A stretch of DNA of 44,029 bases from Bacilli bacterium. Its GTDB lineage: Bacteria > Bacillota_I > Bacilli_A > JAJDGJ01. Below are positions 3,563-34,590 of this stretch, one piece after another. The stretch is taken from contig JAISTP010000045.1 of NCBI GenBank assembly GCA_031272545.1, positions 1 through 44,029 on the forward strand. Reading direction: 5' to 3'. The position numbers and the translations under genes were made by a program. The notes beneath the pieces were generated by a model. That model was not told where the DNA came from. It worked only from the letters and a program-made list of their open reading frames with translations, and did no database searches. Position 1 is the stretch's first letter; each line of letters opens with the position of its first letter.

Positions 3563-4363
3563 TTATAAAATATATTTCTTTTTATTACTATTTTTATATT
3601 GTAAATAAGCTACATTCAATACTAAACCAAAATAGATTGCCCAACTCATATAAAAGAAGAAATGAGCTAAGACAATGATAAAAGCTAACGAACCATATAA
3701 AAAATTGAATCTTGTCATTGAAAAAATATAATTAGATAAAATTATCATTAAAAAAATCATAATAGTAGAAAATAATACTCCTAAAATTATATCTTTAAAT
3801 TTAAGTTTAAAATCACTTACTAAGCCATAACTTAAATAAATAATTACAAAAATAACAATCAATAAAATAAGAAAATACAAATTTAATTTAAGATCAATAT
3901 GAAGAAAATCTAAAATAAGTGGTAAAAAATTAGTTAAAACAATCATAATAATAATAACTAATAACAAAGATAAATTTAAAAGAATAGCATAAAGATATGA
4001 CTTAAAAAAAGAAATTTTCTTTAAATCATACATACTCTCTATGGCATACATAATACCTCTAAAGCCATTACAAGAAAAGAATAAGCTTACCACAAAGACA
4101 GCAATACTAATAACAAGACTAGCATCTTTAAAATCATCTTTAACATATTGAACAAAGCTAGCTAAATCAAAATCAATATTGTTAATAACAAGAATATGAT
4201 TAATTAAGCTAAGATCACTAATAAAATATCTAATAATAAATAAACTAAGGCCAAATAACAAGGGAATAAATGAAATGATAAAATAAAAAGCTAAACTAGA
4301 TGGTATCCAACGATATTCACCATGATAGACTATTTTAATGGCATTTTTAAGTACATTAATCAT
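3563..4363 (-). CDS. YihY/BrkB family inner membrane protein
   Basis: An integral membrane protein of 266 residues with about six hydrophobic spans, matching the YihY/BrkB family (PF03631, once misnamed ribonuclease BN). The N-terminal part has the family-typical segment in which aromatic residues flank a Pro-rich first helix (SLAFYFIISFIPLLFG), and the middle carries the FFSCNGFRGIMYAIESMY signature. The role of the family is unsettled; transport or lipid-related functions have been proposed. It overlaps the acetyltransferase gene upstream by 8 bases, so both are likely read from one mRNA. Confidence 0.88.
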   Translation of the reverse strand: MINVLKNAIKIVYHGEYRWIPSSLAFYFIISFIPLLFGLSLFIIRYFISDLSLINHILVINNIDFDLASFVQYVKDDFKDASLVISIAVFVVSLFFSCNGFRGIMYAIESMYDLKKISFFKSYLYAILLNLSLLLVIIIMIVLTNFLPLILDFLHIDLKLNLYFLILLIVIFVIIYLSYGLVSDFKLKFKDIILGVLFSTIMIFLMIILSNYIFSMTRFNFLYGSLAFIIVLAHFFFYMSWAIYFGLVLNVAYLQYKNSNKKKYIL

Positions 4364-4880
4364 AATTATATAAATACGAAGGATGCATTAAACCAGTTGG
4401 TTCATAATAGCATTCTTGATAGAATTTAAAACCTAAACTAAGTAACATAGTTTTACTACGAACATTATTAGGATTATGTCCGGCAAAAAGATTATCTACT
4501 TTTAAATCATCAAAAGCATATTTAATTACTTTAGACATTGCTTCACTAGCATAACCACAATGCCAATAAGTATCAAGTAAATGAATACCAATTTCTAAGA
4601 CATAGCCCTTATCAGGTAAAGAAATAGGTCTTAACCCACATACTCCAATAAAAGCATCATTATCTAATAAAAAAACAGGCCAATAACAATAACCATATTT
4701 TTTTTGTAAAGATAATTCTAAATTAAAACGATCTCTAATCATTTCATCACTAAAAACACCTTCTGCACTAATAAACTTAGTAACATGAGGATTGGAATAC
4801 AATTTAATAGCTAAATATAAATCATTATCATTCCATTTTTTAAAACCTAAACGTTTAGTTTTCATAAAATAATTATTCAT
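4356..4880 (-). CDS. GNAT acetyltransferase, RimJ/RimL-like
   Basis: A GNAT-fold N-acetyltransferase of about 174 residues of the Acetyltransf_3 type (PF13302), related to RimJ/RimL and ribosomal-protein-Ser acetyltransferases. It opens with the usual TKRLGFKKWNDNDL strand-helix start, and the acetyl-CoA binding part is the LDTYWHCGYASEAM segment followed by the HNPNNVRSKTMLLSLGF motif, where the Asn-x-x-Ser and Gly-Phe are family hallmarks. The frame is open five codons earlier, but those codons form the GGTGG ribosome binding site, so I start at the next ATG. The acceptor substrate cannot be predicted. It is coupled to the downstream BrkB-like gene. Confidence 0.85.
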   Translation of the reverse strand: MNNYFMKTKRLGFKKWNDNDLYLAIKLYSNPHVTKFISAEGVFSDEMIRDRFNLELSLQKKYGYCYWPVFLLDNDAFIGVCGLRPISLPDKGYVLEIGIHLLDTYWHCGYASEAMSKVIKYAFDDLKVDNLFAGHNPNNVRSKTMLLSLGFKFYQECYYEPTGLMHPSYLYNYD

Positions 4881-4955
4881 TAATCCACCACCCATTGTTA
4901 GTAGTATTTTATCATAAATAATAATAATAAAACATGAATTATAAACACATAAATT

Positions 4956-5039: not shown

Positions 5040-5759
5040 TTATAATATCTTTGAAAGAAAATCCTTAGCACGATCAGTTTTAGGATTTTTAAAAAATACT
5101 TTAGGAGTTGTGTCTTCTAAAATTTCACCTGCATCAAGAAATAGTAATCTTGTTCCTACTTCTTTAGCAAAGTTCATTTCATGAGTAACAACAACCATTG
5201 TTACTTGTCCAACAATACTTTTCATTACATCTAATACTTCTTTAATCATTTCTGGATCTAAAGCAGATGTTGGCTCATCAAAAAGAATAACATCAGGTTT
5301 CATAGCTAAAGAACGAGCAATAGCAACTCTTTGTTTTTGTCCACCACTTAAATTCTTTGGATATTCATTAGCTTTATCAGCTAATCCAACCATATTAAGA
5401 AGTTTAAGACCACTATTTATGGCATCAGCTTCATTCATTATTCCTAATTTAATTGGTGCAAGCGTAATATTTTCTAATGCTGTTTTATGAGGAAATAAAT
5501 TAAATTGTTGGAAGACCATAGCTATTTTTTCTCTTATTTTATTAATATCATTAGCTTTATCATTAATATCTAATCCTTCAAAAAAAACATGACCAAATGT
5601 TGGCTTTTCTAAAGCATTCATACAACGTAATAATGTTGATTTTCCTCCACCACTAGGACCAATAATAACAACAACTTCATCTTTTTTAATATGTAAGTTA
5701 ATATCTTTTAAAACAACATTCTTTTTAAATTGTTTAGTTAATTCTTCAATCTTAATCAT
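5040..5759 (-). CDS. Polar amino acid ABC transporter, ATP-binding subunit
   Basis: The cytoplasmic ATPase of a HAAT-type (GlnQ/HisP-like) amino acid importer, about 239 residues. Walker A is GPSGGGKST (near 36-44), the Q-loop is in [11 protein letters not shown], the signature is LSGGQKQRV, Walker B runs into [10 protein letters not shown], and the H-loop is VVTHEM. The ATG used here overlaps the permease end by 8 bases. An in-frame TTG two codons upstream (5763-5765) lies 6 bases from a GGAGG ribosome binding site, while the ATG lies 12 bases from it, so the TTG may be the true start. It is the last gene of the binding protein-permease-ATPase operon controlled by the leader at 7299-7497. 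Confidence 0.95.
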
Positions 5760-6453
5760 TAGCAAACTTCGCCTCCATTAAACCAACTAATTTAGTTAAG
5801 CAATATACAACTAGAAAATATAAGATACCTGCCATAAATAAAGGTGGGAATGGATTATAAGTAATATTGGCGGCTTGTTTAGAGAAGAACATTAAATCTT
5901 TTGCACCAATAACTGAAACAATAGCTGTTTCTTTTGTTAAAGCAATAAACTCATTACCTAATGCTGGCATAATATTCTTAATAGCTTGTGGTAAGATGAT
6001 AAGTCTTAAACTAGCCTTATAATCAAAACCTAAAGAGCTAGCAGCTTCAAATTGACCTTTATCAACAGAAGTAATTCCCGCTCTAAAAATCTCCGCAACA
6101 TAAGCAGCACTATTTAAACCAATCGCAATAACTGAAATAACATAACTTGACCAATTTAAGCCAGTACCTGTTAATTCATTAACAATAAAAGCAGGAACAT
6201 AGTACATCATATATAATTGTAATAATAGTGGCGTACCTCTAACAAAATTAATATAAATGGTAACTATTCCTCTAATAAATTTATTTCCAACTAACTTGCC
6301 AATAGCTAATAATATTCCTACTAAAATACCAAGAAAGATACCTAATAGTGCAATACTAAGAGTGGTCAATAGACCACTCATTAAATCAAATACTTCAGCT
6401 TTATTAAAGAAGAAGGAAAAATCCCATAATTTTGAAATATCTAAAAACTGCAT
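5752..6453 (-). CDS. Polar amino acid ABC transporter, permease subunit
   Basis: A membrane permease of 233 residues of the HisM/GlnP type (His/Glu/Gln/Arg/opine family, TIGR01726, PF00528). It shows an N-terminal amphipathic stretch and about five membrane helices. The cytoplasmic EAA loop that docks the ATPase is [22 protein letters not shown], read here only in part as EAASSLGFD followed by the ILPQA ending. The family signature near the middle ([16 protein letters not shown]) is intact. It begins one base after the binding protein stop, with no strong ribosome binding site, so translation is probably coupled. Confidence 0.95.
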
Positions 6454-6454
6454 C

Positions 6455-7267
6455 TTAATTCAACTTATCATATAGTGCGACATTTTCATTGAACATTTTA
6501 TCTAGTTCACCACTATCTTTTAATTCTTTAATGATACTATTTAATTCATCTTTTAAAGCTGTTTCACCTTTAGGAAGACCAATACTAGCACCATCATTTA
6601 GTAAAGCATCATCAATACCTTTAATAGTAGTATAAGTATATTCTGGATATTGAGCAACAATATTTTTAGCACTAACTTCCGCAATAAATAAAGCATCAGC
6701 TTTACCACTTGTTAAAGAAGCAATACTATCAGTTACACCAGGTAATTCTAAAACTTTAGCTCCAGTTACTGCTTTAGCTGTATCATCTTGAGTAGTACCA
6801 GATTGAACAACAATAGTTTTACCTTTATATTGTGAAGCATCTTTATAATTAGCTACATCAGCTTTTTTTACAACGGCAACAGTTTGTGATTGATAATATG
6901 GATCAGAAAAATCAATAGATTTTTCTCTTTCAGGAGTATCAACCATACCTGCTAAAATAATATCAAATTTACCACTTTGAAGTGATCCTATTAAAGCATC
7001 AAAATCAATATCAACCCATTCTACTTTAACTCCTAATTTTTCAGCGATCGCATTACCTAAATCAACATCATAACCAACTAATTTCTTTTGATTATTAGAA
7101 GTATCATAAAATTCATAAGGAGGATAACCAGAATTTGTTCCAATTTTAATTACACCTGCTTCTTTAATCTTTTCAAGTGAATTATCCTTACTATCTGAAG
7201 AACTACCACAACCAGTAACAACTACCATCATTACTAACGCTAACATTAACCCTAAAAATTTTTTCAC
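6455..7267 (-). CDS. Polar amino acid ABC transporter, substrate-binding lipoprotein
   Basis: The extracellular binding protein of the importer, 270 residues, of the type-II bacterial solute-binding family 3 (PF00497). It starts at a GTG 9 bases after AGGAG. The N-terminus has a Lys-Lys head, a hydrophobic core and a lipobox VVTGC, so mature Cys20 would be lipidated. The amino acid binding signature GYDVDLGNAIAEKLG and the FDIILAGMVDTPERE segment are present, and the Arg in the latter normally grips the ligand carboxylate. The ligand is not certain from sequence; the Arg-codon leader peptide upstream suggests arginine or another basic amino acid. First gene of the operon, directly after the attenuator. 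Confidence 0.95.
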   Translation of the reverse strand: MKKFLGLMLALVMMVVVTGCGSSSDSKDNSLEKIKEAGVIKIGTNSGYPPYEFYDTSNNQKKLVGYDVDLGNAIAEKLGVKVEWVDIDFDALIGSLQSGKFDIILAGMVDTPEREKSIDFSDPYYQSQTVAVVKKADVANYKDASQYKGKTIVVQSGTTQDDTAKAVTGAKVLELPGVTDSIASLTSGKADALFIAEVSAKNIVAQYPEYTYTTIKGIDDALLNDGASIGLPKGETALKDELNSIIKELKDSGELDKMFNENVALYDKLN

Positions 7268-7298: not shown

Positions 7299-7336
7299 AA
7301 AAAAATCACTACTTCAATTTTCATGAAATAGTGATT
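7299..7336 (-). terminator. Attenuator terminator before the ABC operon
   Basis: A 13-base-pair stem without mismatch (7304-7316 with 7324-7336, one G-U pair), loop of 7, followed by a run of seven T on the minus strand. It stands between the leader peptide gene and the binding protein gene, so it must be read through for the operon to be expressed. Its 5' arm can instead pair with 7364-7375. Confidence 0.85.
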
Positions 7337-7361
7337 AATTGTTTAATGAAATGCTAAAAAG

Positions 7362-7392
7362 CGTAACCTCTATCTCATGATATAAAGTTACG
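7362..7392 (-). promoter_or_regulatory. Anti-antiterminator hairpin overlapping the leader peptide end
   Basis: A hairpin with arms CGTAAC/GTTACG extended by seven more pairs around one bulged A and an ATGA loop. Its 5' arm is the last codons of the leader peptide (from the third Arg codon to Ser), and its 3' arm contains 7364-7375. That segment pairs with 7326-7337, the 5' arm of the terminator, at 11 of 12 positions (two G-U pairs, one A-A mismatch). A ribosome held on the Arg codons would block this hairpin and let the antiterminator form. Confidence 0.75.
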
Positions 7393-7443
7393 AGCGCGGC
7401 GGACAACCATTAAGTTATTTAATTTTAAATTAGTTAAAAACAT
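7375..7443 (-). CDS. Arginine-codon leader peptide of the ABC operon
   Basis: A 22-codon open frame from ATG to TGA with an AAAGAGGTG ribosome binding site 6 bases upstream. The N-terminal part is MFLTNLKLNNLM and the second part contains VVRRARNF. The Arg codons are CGC, CGC and CGT within four codons, and G+C there is far above the surroundings. It lies between a strong promoter and an attenuator terminator, with its last codons forming one arm of a competing hairpin, which is the layout of a classical ribosome-mediated attenuation leader. I infer that stalling at the Arg codons (low charged tRNA-Arg, or a nascent-chain effect of the RRAR segment) switches the ABC importer on. Confidence 0.75.
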   Translation of the reverse strand: MFLTNLKLNNLMVVRRARNFIS

Positions 7444-7467
7444 TGTCAACACCTCTTTCATGACAAT
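7442..7467 (-). repeat. Inverted repeat around the leader peptide ribosome binding site
   Basis: Seven-base arms ATTGTCA and TGACAAT (7442-7448 and 7461-7467) enclose 12 bases holding the leader ribosome binding site, and the inner arm touches its ATG. It could be a short RNA hairpin that presents or masks the site, or a DNA operator. Confidence 0.5.
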
Positions 7468-7468
7468 C

Positions 7469-7497
7469 ATTATAGACTGACTTAAGATTTTTGTAAA
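7469..7497 (-). promoter_or_regulatory. Promoter of the leader-ABC operon
   Basis: TTTACA (7492-7497) and TATAAT (7469-7474) on the minus strand with a 17-base spacer. Transcription would start about 20 bases before the leader peptide ATG. Confidence 0.8.
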
Positions 7498-11935: not shown

Positions 11936-13324
11936 TTAGAACATACAATTATTTGGTGTACGAGGATAAGGAAGAACATCTCTAATATTAGCAACACCAG
12001 TAATATACATTAGAAATCTTTCAAAACCTAAACCAAATCCAGAGTGTTTAACTCCTCCATATTTTCTAAGTTCTAAATACCATTCCATACCTTCAACTGG
12101 AATATGCATATCTTCCATTCTCTTTAATAATTCATCATATCTTTCTTCCCTTTGAGAACCACCAACAAGTTCACCAATACCAGGAACTAATAAATCACAT
12201 GCGGCAACTGTTTTACCATCATCATCTAAACGCATATAAAATGCTTTGATTTCTTTAGGATAATTTGTTAAAAAGACAGGACCATTAATTACTTTTTCAC
12301 AAATATAACGTTCATGTTCTGATTGCAAATCACATCCCCAATAAACTGGATATTCAAATTCTACTCCATCTTCTTTAGCTTTTTCTAAAATAGAAATAGC
12401 TTCTGTATAAGTCATACGTTTGAAATCTGAATCCACAACAGCTTGAAGACGATCAATAATTCCTTTTTGAATAAATTCATTACAGAATTCCATTTCTTGC
12501 GGACATCTTTCTAATACATATTGAATACAATATCTAACCATATCTTCAATTAATTCCATATTATCATCTAAATCCGCAAAAGCAATTTCTGGTTCAATCA
12601 TCCAAAACTCACTTCCATGACGAGGGGTATTAGATGGTTCAGCTCTAAAAGTAGGACCAAATGTATAAGTATCTCTAAAAGCTAAAGCATATGCTTCAAC
12701 ATGTAATTGACCTGATACTGTTAAACAAGTTTTCTTACCAAAGAAATCTTCTTTATAATTTCCATCATCTCTAGTAGTGACAATAAATGCTTCTCCAGCT
12801 CCTTCAGCATCATTAGCAGTAATGATAGGTGCATGTACATAAACAAATCCTTGAGATTGATAAAATTCATGAATAGCCATTGATAAAACAGAACGAATAC
12901 GCATAACAGCTTGGAAAGTATTAGTTCTAACTCTTAAATGAGGAATCTCTCTTAAATACTCTAAAGAATGTCTTTTCTTTTGTAGTGGATAAGTTTCATC
13001 ACAAGGTGCTAACAATTCAATAGCAGTACATTGTAATTCAAATGGTTGTTTAGCATCAGGTGTTAAAACTAGTTTACCAATTGCTTTAATACCACATCCA
13101 GTTAAATATTTGGCAACGGTATCATAATCAGTTAAATTTTCCTTATTATAAACTAATTGTAATGTTTTAAAACAAGTACCGTCAGTTAATTCAATAAAAC
13201 CAATTGAACCATTATCGCGGTTTGTTTTAATCCACCCTTCAAAACATAATTCTTCTTCTGTTATTAATTCTTTTTCATCAATTAAATATTGATCATATAG
13301 ATCGGTTACTAACATAGCTTGCAT
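11936..13324 (-). CDS. asnS: Asparaginyl-tRNA synthetase
   Basis: A class IIb aminoacyl-tRNA synthetase of 462 residues that charges tRNA-Asn. The N-terminal OB-fold anticodon-binding domain (about 20-125) is followed by the catalytic core with motif 2 [21 protein letters not shown] and motif 3 [15 protein letters not shown]; the ending DVLPYPRTP is typical for AsnRS rather than AspRS. The open frame extends seven codons upstream, but those codons contain the AAAGGAG ribosome binding site, so I start at the ATG 7 bases after it. It is governed by a T-box leader with an AAC (Asn) specifier, which supports the identity independently. Confidence 0.97.
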
Positions 13325-13339
13325 AATTAAACTCCTTTC

Positions 13340-13545
13340 AAACAAAAAAAGAATGGTCTAGGAACGAATAAATCGCGGTACCATCCTAATTCACTAAATT
13401 AGTGCTCTTTTTAAAGATAACGGGTTTACCGTAGTAGTTTTTTGCTACTAAACTCCAGAGTGTTACTTTTTATATAAATCATCTAGCTTACACCATCCTA
13501 GATTCGCTTAAAATTTATACTTATAAAAAGGTCTCTTTCAACGTT
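13340..13545 (-). promoter_or_regulatory. T-box leader of asnS, Asn specifier
   Basis: A tRNA-sensing T-box riboswitch. The T-box sequence AGGATGGTACCGCG lies at 13374-13387 on the minus strand. The Stem I distal-loop region (GGATGGTG) is near 13482-13500, and the specifier codon AAC, followed by the conserved purine, is at 13462-13464. The terminator is formed by AGGATGGT pairing with ACCATTCT just before a T run at about 13344-13351. Uncharged tRNA-Asn should stabilise the antiterminator and raise asnS expression. Confidence 0.95.
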
Positions 13546-13548
13546 GTA

Positions 13549-13577
13549 TTAATAGTTTAACATTTTTTATAATTCAA
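13549..13577 (-). promoter_or_regulatory. Promoter of the asnS T-box transcript
   Basis: TTGAAT (13572-13577) and TATTAA (13549-13554) with a 17-base spacer on the minus strand, directly upstream of the T-box. The remaining intergenic stretch from 13578 to 13819 is about 90 percent A+T and shows nothing else I can support. Confidence 0.6.
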
Positions 13578-34357: not shown

Positions 34358-34590
34358 CTCCTTCTAAAATAAAAAGCAATTCATATAGAGGCGCTTAATA
34401 GCACGGTTCCACTCTACTTGAATCACTTCACCTTTTTTCATTTAACGCATGATTACGTTTTTGACTACTTACTTCATCAAAACTCAAGTGAAGGCATTCA
34501 ATAAATATTTAATGAATCTTTTCACCAACCAGATTCTCTCTTTAAATAAATTATCTATTTACTATTTTCACTTATAATTTAATATGTGCA
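34358..34590 (-). promoter_or_regulatory. T-box leader of cysS, Cys specifier
   Basis: The T-box sequence AGAGTGGAACCGTGC lies at 34401-34415 (minus strand). The specifier TGC is at 34495-34497, in the 3' half of Stem I, whose distal loop GGTTGGTG is near 34525. The terminator pairs GTGATTCAAGTAGAG with CTCTATATGAATTGC (one mismatch) before TTTTTATTTT. Uncharged tRNA-Cys should open expression of cysS-mrnC-rlmB. Confidence 0.95.

Follow-up and report, generated by a model that had tools for sequence, protein, structure and literature searches.

A putative ribosome-mediated attenuator with an arginine-codon leader peptide precedes an amino-acid ABC importer operon in one family of Bacilli

The stretch of DNA analysed here (44,029 nucleotides of the Bacilli contig JAISTP010000045.1, hereafter the window) carries, directly before an amino-acid ABC importer operon, a leader element that is very probably a transcription attenuator of the trp/his type. 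Judging from its sequence, this element would be governed by a translating ribosome, would sense the charging of CGN-reading tRNA-Arg and would control an arginine importer. We infer the translation of the leader, the stalling of the ribosome, the substrate and the direction of regulation; the sequence elements, their conservation and the mutually exclusive pairings are observed directly. The promoter, the ribosome-binding site, the 22-codon frame with its cluster of Arg codons, the hairpin at the end of this frame and the 13-bp terminator followed by seven T, all named in the original prediction, were recovered by direct reading (Table 1). A short frame with its own Shine-Dalgarno sequence is thus placed between a promoter and structural genes, as expected of an attenuator.

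Table 1. Features of the putative attenuator and of the importer operon in the window
Feature	Position	Strand	Basis or remark
Promoter TTTACA-17-TATAAT	7469..7497	-	read directly and by pattern search
-35 TTTACA, 17-nt spacer, -10 TATAAT	7497-7492 (-35); 7474-7469 (-10)	-	read directly
Shine-Dalgarno GAGGTG of the leader frame	7450..7455	-	read directly
Leader ORF MFLTNLKLNNLMVVRRARNFIS, 22 codons	7375..7443	-	read directly; ATG 7443, TGA 7377-7375
Putative sensor codons CGC CGC GCT CGT (Arg Arg Ala Arg)	7390..7401	-	read directly; Arg codons CGC 7401-7399, CGC 7398-7396, CGT 7392-7390
1:2 hairpin (pro-terminator)	7362..7392	-	5' arm CGTAAC = last Arg codon and next Asn codon
Antiterminator arm 2, TGAGATAGAGGTTA	7364..7377	-	pairs with 7337-7324
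Arm 3, antiterminator 3' side and terminator 5' arm	7324..7337	-	
Intrinsic terminator, 13-bp stem and T7	7299..7336	-	stem 7336-7304, T7 at 7305-7299
Substrate-binding lipoprotein, regulated gene 1, of the putative arginine importer	6455..7267	-	SBP_bac_3
Permease, regulated gene 2	5752..6453	-	BPD_transp_1, HEQRo_perm_3TM
ABC ATPase, regulated gene 3	5040..5765	-	GlnQ/HisP/ArtP-type

The family set comprised four genomes, namely that of the window (G000), one of the same genus (G001, also JAITPW010000086.1, a Bacilli MAG), one of the same family (G002) and a fourth family genome (G003, 62% complete), in which no match to the importer was found. The orthologous operon is present in G001 and G002 with its gene order kept (binding protein, permease, ATPase and then an acetyltransferase gene), and in all three genomes carrying it, the operon is preceded by the promoter, the Shine-Dalgarno sequence, the frame and the stems. 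G001 also shares the gene that lies upstream of the leader, whereas this gene was not found in the corresponding region of G002, which indicates that the leader travels with the importer. The gene after the importer operon in all three genomes (window 4356-4895, reverse strand) encodes a GNAT acetyltransferase. The equivalent promoter site reads TTTACA-17-TATCAT in G001 and TAGACA-17-TATTAT in G002. Across the genome, the exact promoter pattern occurs no more often than its reversed control (20 against 26 occurrences), and the weight of this element therefore rests on its position and conservation. The Shine-Dalgarno-like sequences AGTGGTGA and AAGGAAGTGA occupy the matching site of the other two leaders, whose peptides are MLDYKLQLNSALVLRDRRNYLSRNRDYAF and MNNLNKLNSNIICVVRRRRNS; the three peptides end in ..VVRRARNF (window), ..VLRDRRNY and ..VVRRRRNS. 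The alignment of orthologous leaders, which had been proposed as a check, thus shows in silico that the Arg-rich frame is kept along with three exclusive stems, and the opposite outcome, stems kept with the Arg codons lost, was not the case in either G001 or G002.

Beyond these genomes, the distribution of the element is narrow. The covariance-model search of 395 Bacilli genomes found it in three, which all belong to the family of the window; ten of the best further matches proved on reading to be ordinary terminators or coding sequence, with no Arg leader. The scan of the four family genomes for the RxxRN-coding motif (CGYNNNNNYCGYAAY) gave no enrichment over the reversed pattern, and, besides the three known leaders, a single match (L141) satisfied a loose hairpin test. 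The only other matches to the peptide-coding pattern in 100 relatives were L039 and L041, and no further Arg leader with a terminator was present upstream of the about 60 binding-protein homologues inspected.

The alternative pairing, between the leader and the terminator's 5' arm, was also part of the original prediction; 13 of its 14 positions pair. The three hairpins, the last of which is an intrinsic terminator, are mutually exclusive in each of the three species. With the window given first, the folding energies are -10.5, -7.7 and -6.1 kcal/mol for 1:2, -9.0, -11.2 and -12.6 kcal/mol for 2:3, and -14.7, -15.1 and -15.5 kcal/mol for the terminator (3:4). The 1:2 hairpin has z values of -4.8, -4.2 and -2.4, and the fold of the window was equalled by none of 200 shuffles. 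The duplex between leader and terminator arm was matched in strength by 6 of 2000 dinucleotide shuffles in the window; the counts for the two orthologous leaders were 14 and 93 of 2000. In the alignment, 92% of the 2:3 cells are paired in register, compared with 41-63% when the strands are slid. Compensatory changes were observed in 1:2 (C-G to U-A between species) and in the terminator (A-U to G-C, in G002), and the three double changes counted among the three leaders did not exceed the shuffle control. These changes are suggestive of the 1:2 and 3:4 stems, in a non-statistical sense that goes with a comparison of only three sequences.

In the proposed mechanism, transcription would begin immediately upstream of the ribosome-binding site of the leader. 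When arginyl-tRNA is plentiful, the ribosome would pass the CGC and CGT codons, reach the stop codon and cover arm 2, leaving arm 3 to pair with arm 4, so that the terminator would stop transcription ahead of the importer. Under a shortage of arginyl-tRNA, the ribosome would stall at an Arg codon and cover arm 1, which consists of the Arg-Asn codons CGTAAC; the 2:3 pairing would then form, the terminator would be blocked and the importer would be transcribed. If the leader is not translated, 1:2 and 3:4 would form and termination would be the default. This scheme was examined with a footprint model, in which the edge of the ribosome was assumed to lie about 12 nt beyond the start of the A-site codon. 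With a modelled stall at any Arg codon, arm 1 is half or fully covered, arm 2 is free and the antiterminator keeps its full strength. Moving the ribosome to the stop codon abolishes the antiterminator in the leaders of the window and of G001, where arm 2 is then covered. In the G002 leader, part of arm 2 stays free of the terminating ribosome and a fold of -5.6 kcal/mol is left. At the assumed edge, a stalled ribosome falls on arm 1 and a terminating one on arm 2, less completely in G002 than in the others. The three-hairpin logic ascribed to this leader is thus supported by exclusive stems and footprint arithmetic in three leaders.

Arginine as the signal is indicated by the CGC and CGT codons, by Arg T-boxes on homologous importers and by the arginine physiology of the family. 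The nearest NCBIfam model of the binding protein is TIGR01096 (Lys/Arg/Orn), with 163.6 bits, under the cut-off of 256, and its best PDB match is 4ymx. T-boxes with CGC or CGU specifiers precede homologous importers in 11 genomes from five other Bacilli families (f6, f8, f9, f11 and f19); through these homologues the structural genes can be related to the amino acid sensed, and the proposal of an importer for arginine or basic amino acids gains support. Several of these T-boxes are arranged in tandem, with tandem Arg T-boxes ahead of homologous importers in L022, L028 and L031. The Arg specifiers were read by hand from alignments, with the specifier position calibrated on the 12 T-boxes of the window's own genome, none of them for Arg (Ser, Met, Val, Leu, Met, Ile, Asn, Asn, Asn, Thr, Ala and Cys). 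Eleven of these codons, all but the Cys one, presumably fit the downstream genes as we recognise them from their translations. The claim that the window holds two T-boxes was confirmed, as both match the T-box covariance model (RF00230); these are the only matches in the window, at 13357-13550 and 34384-34578, and the leader itself is not matched. Both lie on the reverse strand; the first has AAC (Asn) as its specifier and precedes an asparaginyl-tRNA-synthetase-like gene (11936-13345), and the specifier of the second is TGC (Cys). ArgR was not detected in the four family genomes. The argG gene was found in the genome of the window (L124, G000:C15:26146-27315) and was not detected in the other three; no leader lies directly upstream of it, and the preceding gene ends just before argG. 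CGY codons are read by tRNA-Arg(ACG), and among the 30 tRNA loci taken, the Arg tRNAs seen were ACG and TCT only.

The same attenuator might serve an importer whose main substrate is another basic amino acid, such as lysine or ornithine, or a mixture, which is an unlikely reading, even though the clade also holds importers under lysine riboswitches and the NCBIfam subfamily nearest to the binding protein, below its cut-off, is that for Lys/Arg/Orn. Against it stand the Arg T-boxes on 11 homologous importers and the presence, in the same genome, of a separate importer under a lysine riboswitch. The lysine riboswitch model (RF00168) gave no match in the window or at the G001 and G002 leaders.

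A further question is whether the ribosome would respond to the codons or to the peptide. The three peptides share V-[VL]-R-x-x-R-N, and a nascent chain that arrests the ribosome on free arginine, ornithine or another small molecule, as in SpeFL, and not on uncharged tRNA, would be expected to show identical RNA logic. Arrest by the peptide is nevertheless very unlikely, given that the middle residues vary in charge (RA, DR, RR), that the C-terminal ends differ, that the codons used are the genome-rare CGC and that homologous importers are under T-boxes sensing Arg-tRNA. Membership of the SpeFL/orf34 group (DUF2618), defined by a HIRRT-HIMM core before speF, was rejected, since the peptides differ and the downstream gene belongs to an ABC importer.

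Codon sensing is favoured by the composition of the frame. CGC occurs at 0.58 per 1000 codons in the genes of the window, and a random frame of 22 codons with the window's codon usage would contain at least three CGY among four consecutive codons with a probability of about 3.5e-5. The equivalent sensor codons are CGC GAT CGC CGT in G001 and CGC CGC CGC CGT in G002; every leader thus has three or four CGY codons, with at least one CGY outside both paired regions. The first Arg codon lies 14, 14 and 15 codons after the ATG in the three leaders, and this one whole codon is the only length difference before the Arg codons. A candidate helix between the Shine-Dalgarno region and the Val-Val-Arg codons (window 7396-7455, reverse strand) is formable in all three leaders, with -11.1, -11.4 and -16.4 kcal/mol, and clearly beats the shuffles in G002 alone (z -3.9, against -0.8 and -0.7 for the other two leaders). 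This helix could account for the conservation of the first Arg codon, and arm 1 for that of the last. Therefore, the cluster of Arg codons is conserved in three leaders with its first and last members partly confounded with helices, and the independent signal consists of the two codons between them, which are CGC GCT, GAT CGC and CGC CGC from the first to the third leader.

The same helices, together with the good conservation of the stems, are what could speak for a structured RNA that binds a ligand or protein, the short frame and its Arg codons being by-products of the stems. We regard this as highly unlikely, because the Shine-Dalgarno sequence, start and stop are kept, the length before the Arg codons changes by a whole codon only, in every leader one or more CGY codons lie outside both stems, the leader has no Rfam match, and a paralogous importer is preceded by a leader with codons for His, the matching amino acid. 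Least likely, to an extreme degree, is a macrolide-type attenuator with antibiotic-induced stalling at a +x+ motif (RAR, RDR, RRR), of a kind used in Bacillota (uORFC-6-1 before hflX, PMC8632094; yxjB, PMC6851288), since the motif, although present in all three peptides, is a trivial consequence of the Arg cluster, and the operon is that of an amino-acid importer without a resistance gene, for which reason assignment to the macrolide-inducible leaders was rejected.

The trp/his-type reading of the Arg leader has a parallel among the paralogous importers of the same genome, of which two binding proteins served as controls. The binding protein at G000:C17:8330-9094 is preceded by the leader MFYNNNLNNFEHHHIMINNSIRHTMLF and then by a terminator. 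The His codons, antiterminator and terminator together span L120:1139-1292 (G000:C17, forward strand). Downstream of the His codons, the segment AGTATTCGCC pairs with GGTGAATACT on the 5' side of the terminator, the best duplex of the two regions having -14.6 kcal/mol. On sequence grounds, this pairing would be removed by a ribosome that reaches the stop codon. The closest homologues of this importer (L156-L159) bear T-boxes with CAC (His) specifiers, and in the tree L120 is sister to L156 (support 98/91). Since L120 stands among His T-box importers, the tree favours a history in which the His importer exchanged a T-box for a leader peptide. The Arg leader clade is nested in the basic-amino-acid clade and has no direct sister clade with T-boxes; the tree therefore gives no direction of sensor change for arginine. 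Other paralogous importers are preceded by lysine riboswitches, at L119:2222-2390 (G000:C23) and L123:2112-2282 (G002, C16), both on the reverse strand.

The short ORF with regulatory codons, the 1:2, 2:3 and 3:4 pairings, the intrinsic terminator and the stop codon at arm 2 are shared with the E. coli trp and his attenuators, from which the Arg leader differs in that it would sense arginine and control an importer, in a low-GC Bacilli genome; a relation in sequence is not known. The attenuation logic of the original prediction is supported; its view that such a device is unusual in Bacillota needs the correction that a His leader occurs in the same genome and that leader-peptide attenuation for His and branched-chain amino acids is established or predicted in the phylum by the cited papers. 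These describe His leaders before hisZ/hisS* (PMC2965389) and his operons, including those of Erysipelotrichales (PMC9413887), and branched-chain leaders in S. aureus, L. monocytogenes and Lactococcus (PMC6123439, PMC5794164); a leader has also been proposed for Acholeplasma aroF (PMC8632094), and the replacement of T-boxes by leader peptides has already been described (PMC2965389). Mechanism and phylum are common to the Bacillota leaders and the Arg leader, but the former respond to other amino acids and, in the cited cases, mostly precede biosynthetic or synthetase genes. In Salmonella speF, too, a short upstream ORF (orf34) senses arginine through ribosome pausing on consecutive Arg codons, but it acts through Rho termination, RNase G decay and translation of the decarboxylase and has no intrinsic-terminator attenuator (PMC6386406). 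The S. aureus rbfL, also a Bacillota upstream ORF whose Arg codons (AGA/AGG) sense arginine limitation, encodes an 8-residue peptide, depends on tRNA UCU and leads to repression, as the stalled ribosome blocks the downstream ribosome-binding site (PMC13009471). The Arg T-boxes share with the Arg leader homologous genes, the same presumed signal (uncharged CGY-reading tRNA-Arg) and the same output, but in them the RNA, unrelated in sequence, reads the tRNA directly and there is no leader peptide. No description of an Arg-specific intrinsic-terminator attenuator was found in open-access full texts, which mostly omit subscription journals.

Summarizing, there is an even chance that the Arg leader is an undescribed Arg-specific attenuator that forms part of a sensor change at the level of a lineage, in which the Arg and His importers of one family came to rely on leader peptides, as opposed to the T-boxes for the same tRNAs in related families, while T-boxes were kept on synthetase and biosynthetic genes. 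As leader-peptide attenuation is already known in Bacillota, the greater interest lies in the exchange of sensors among related families. If this is true, classical attenuation would be extended to arginine, and two unrelated devices, the T-box and the leader peptide, would stand side by side on homologous importers, presumably reading the same tRNA, with the His leader before the paralogous importer as a second instance. The contrast between Arg leader and Arg T-box opens the question of what causes the type of sensor to change in a lineage, and also raises that of why CGC, very rare in this genome, is used as the leader codon.
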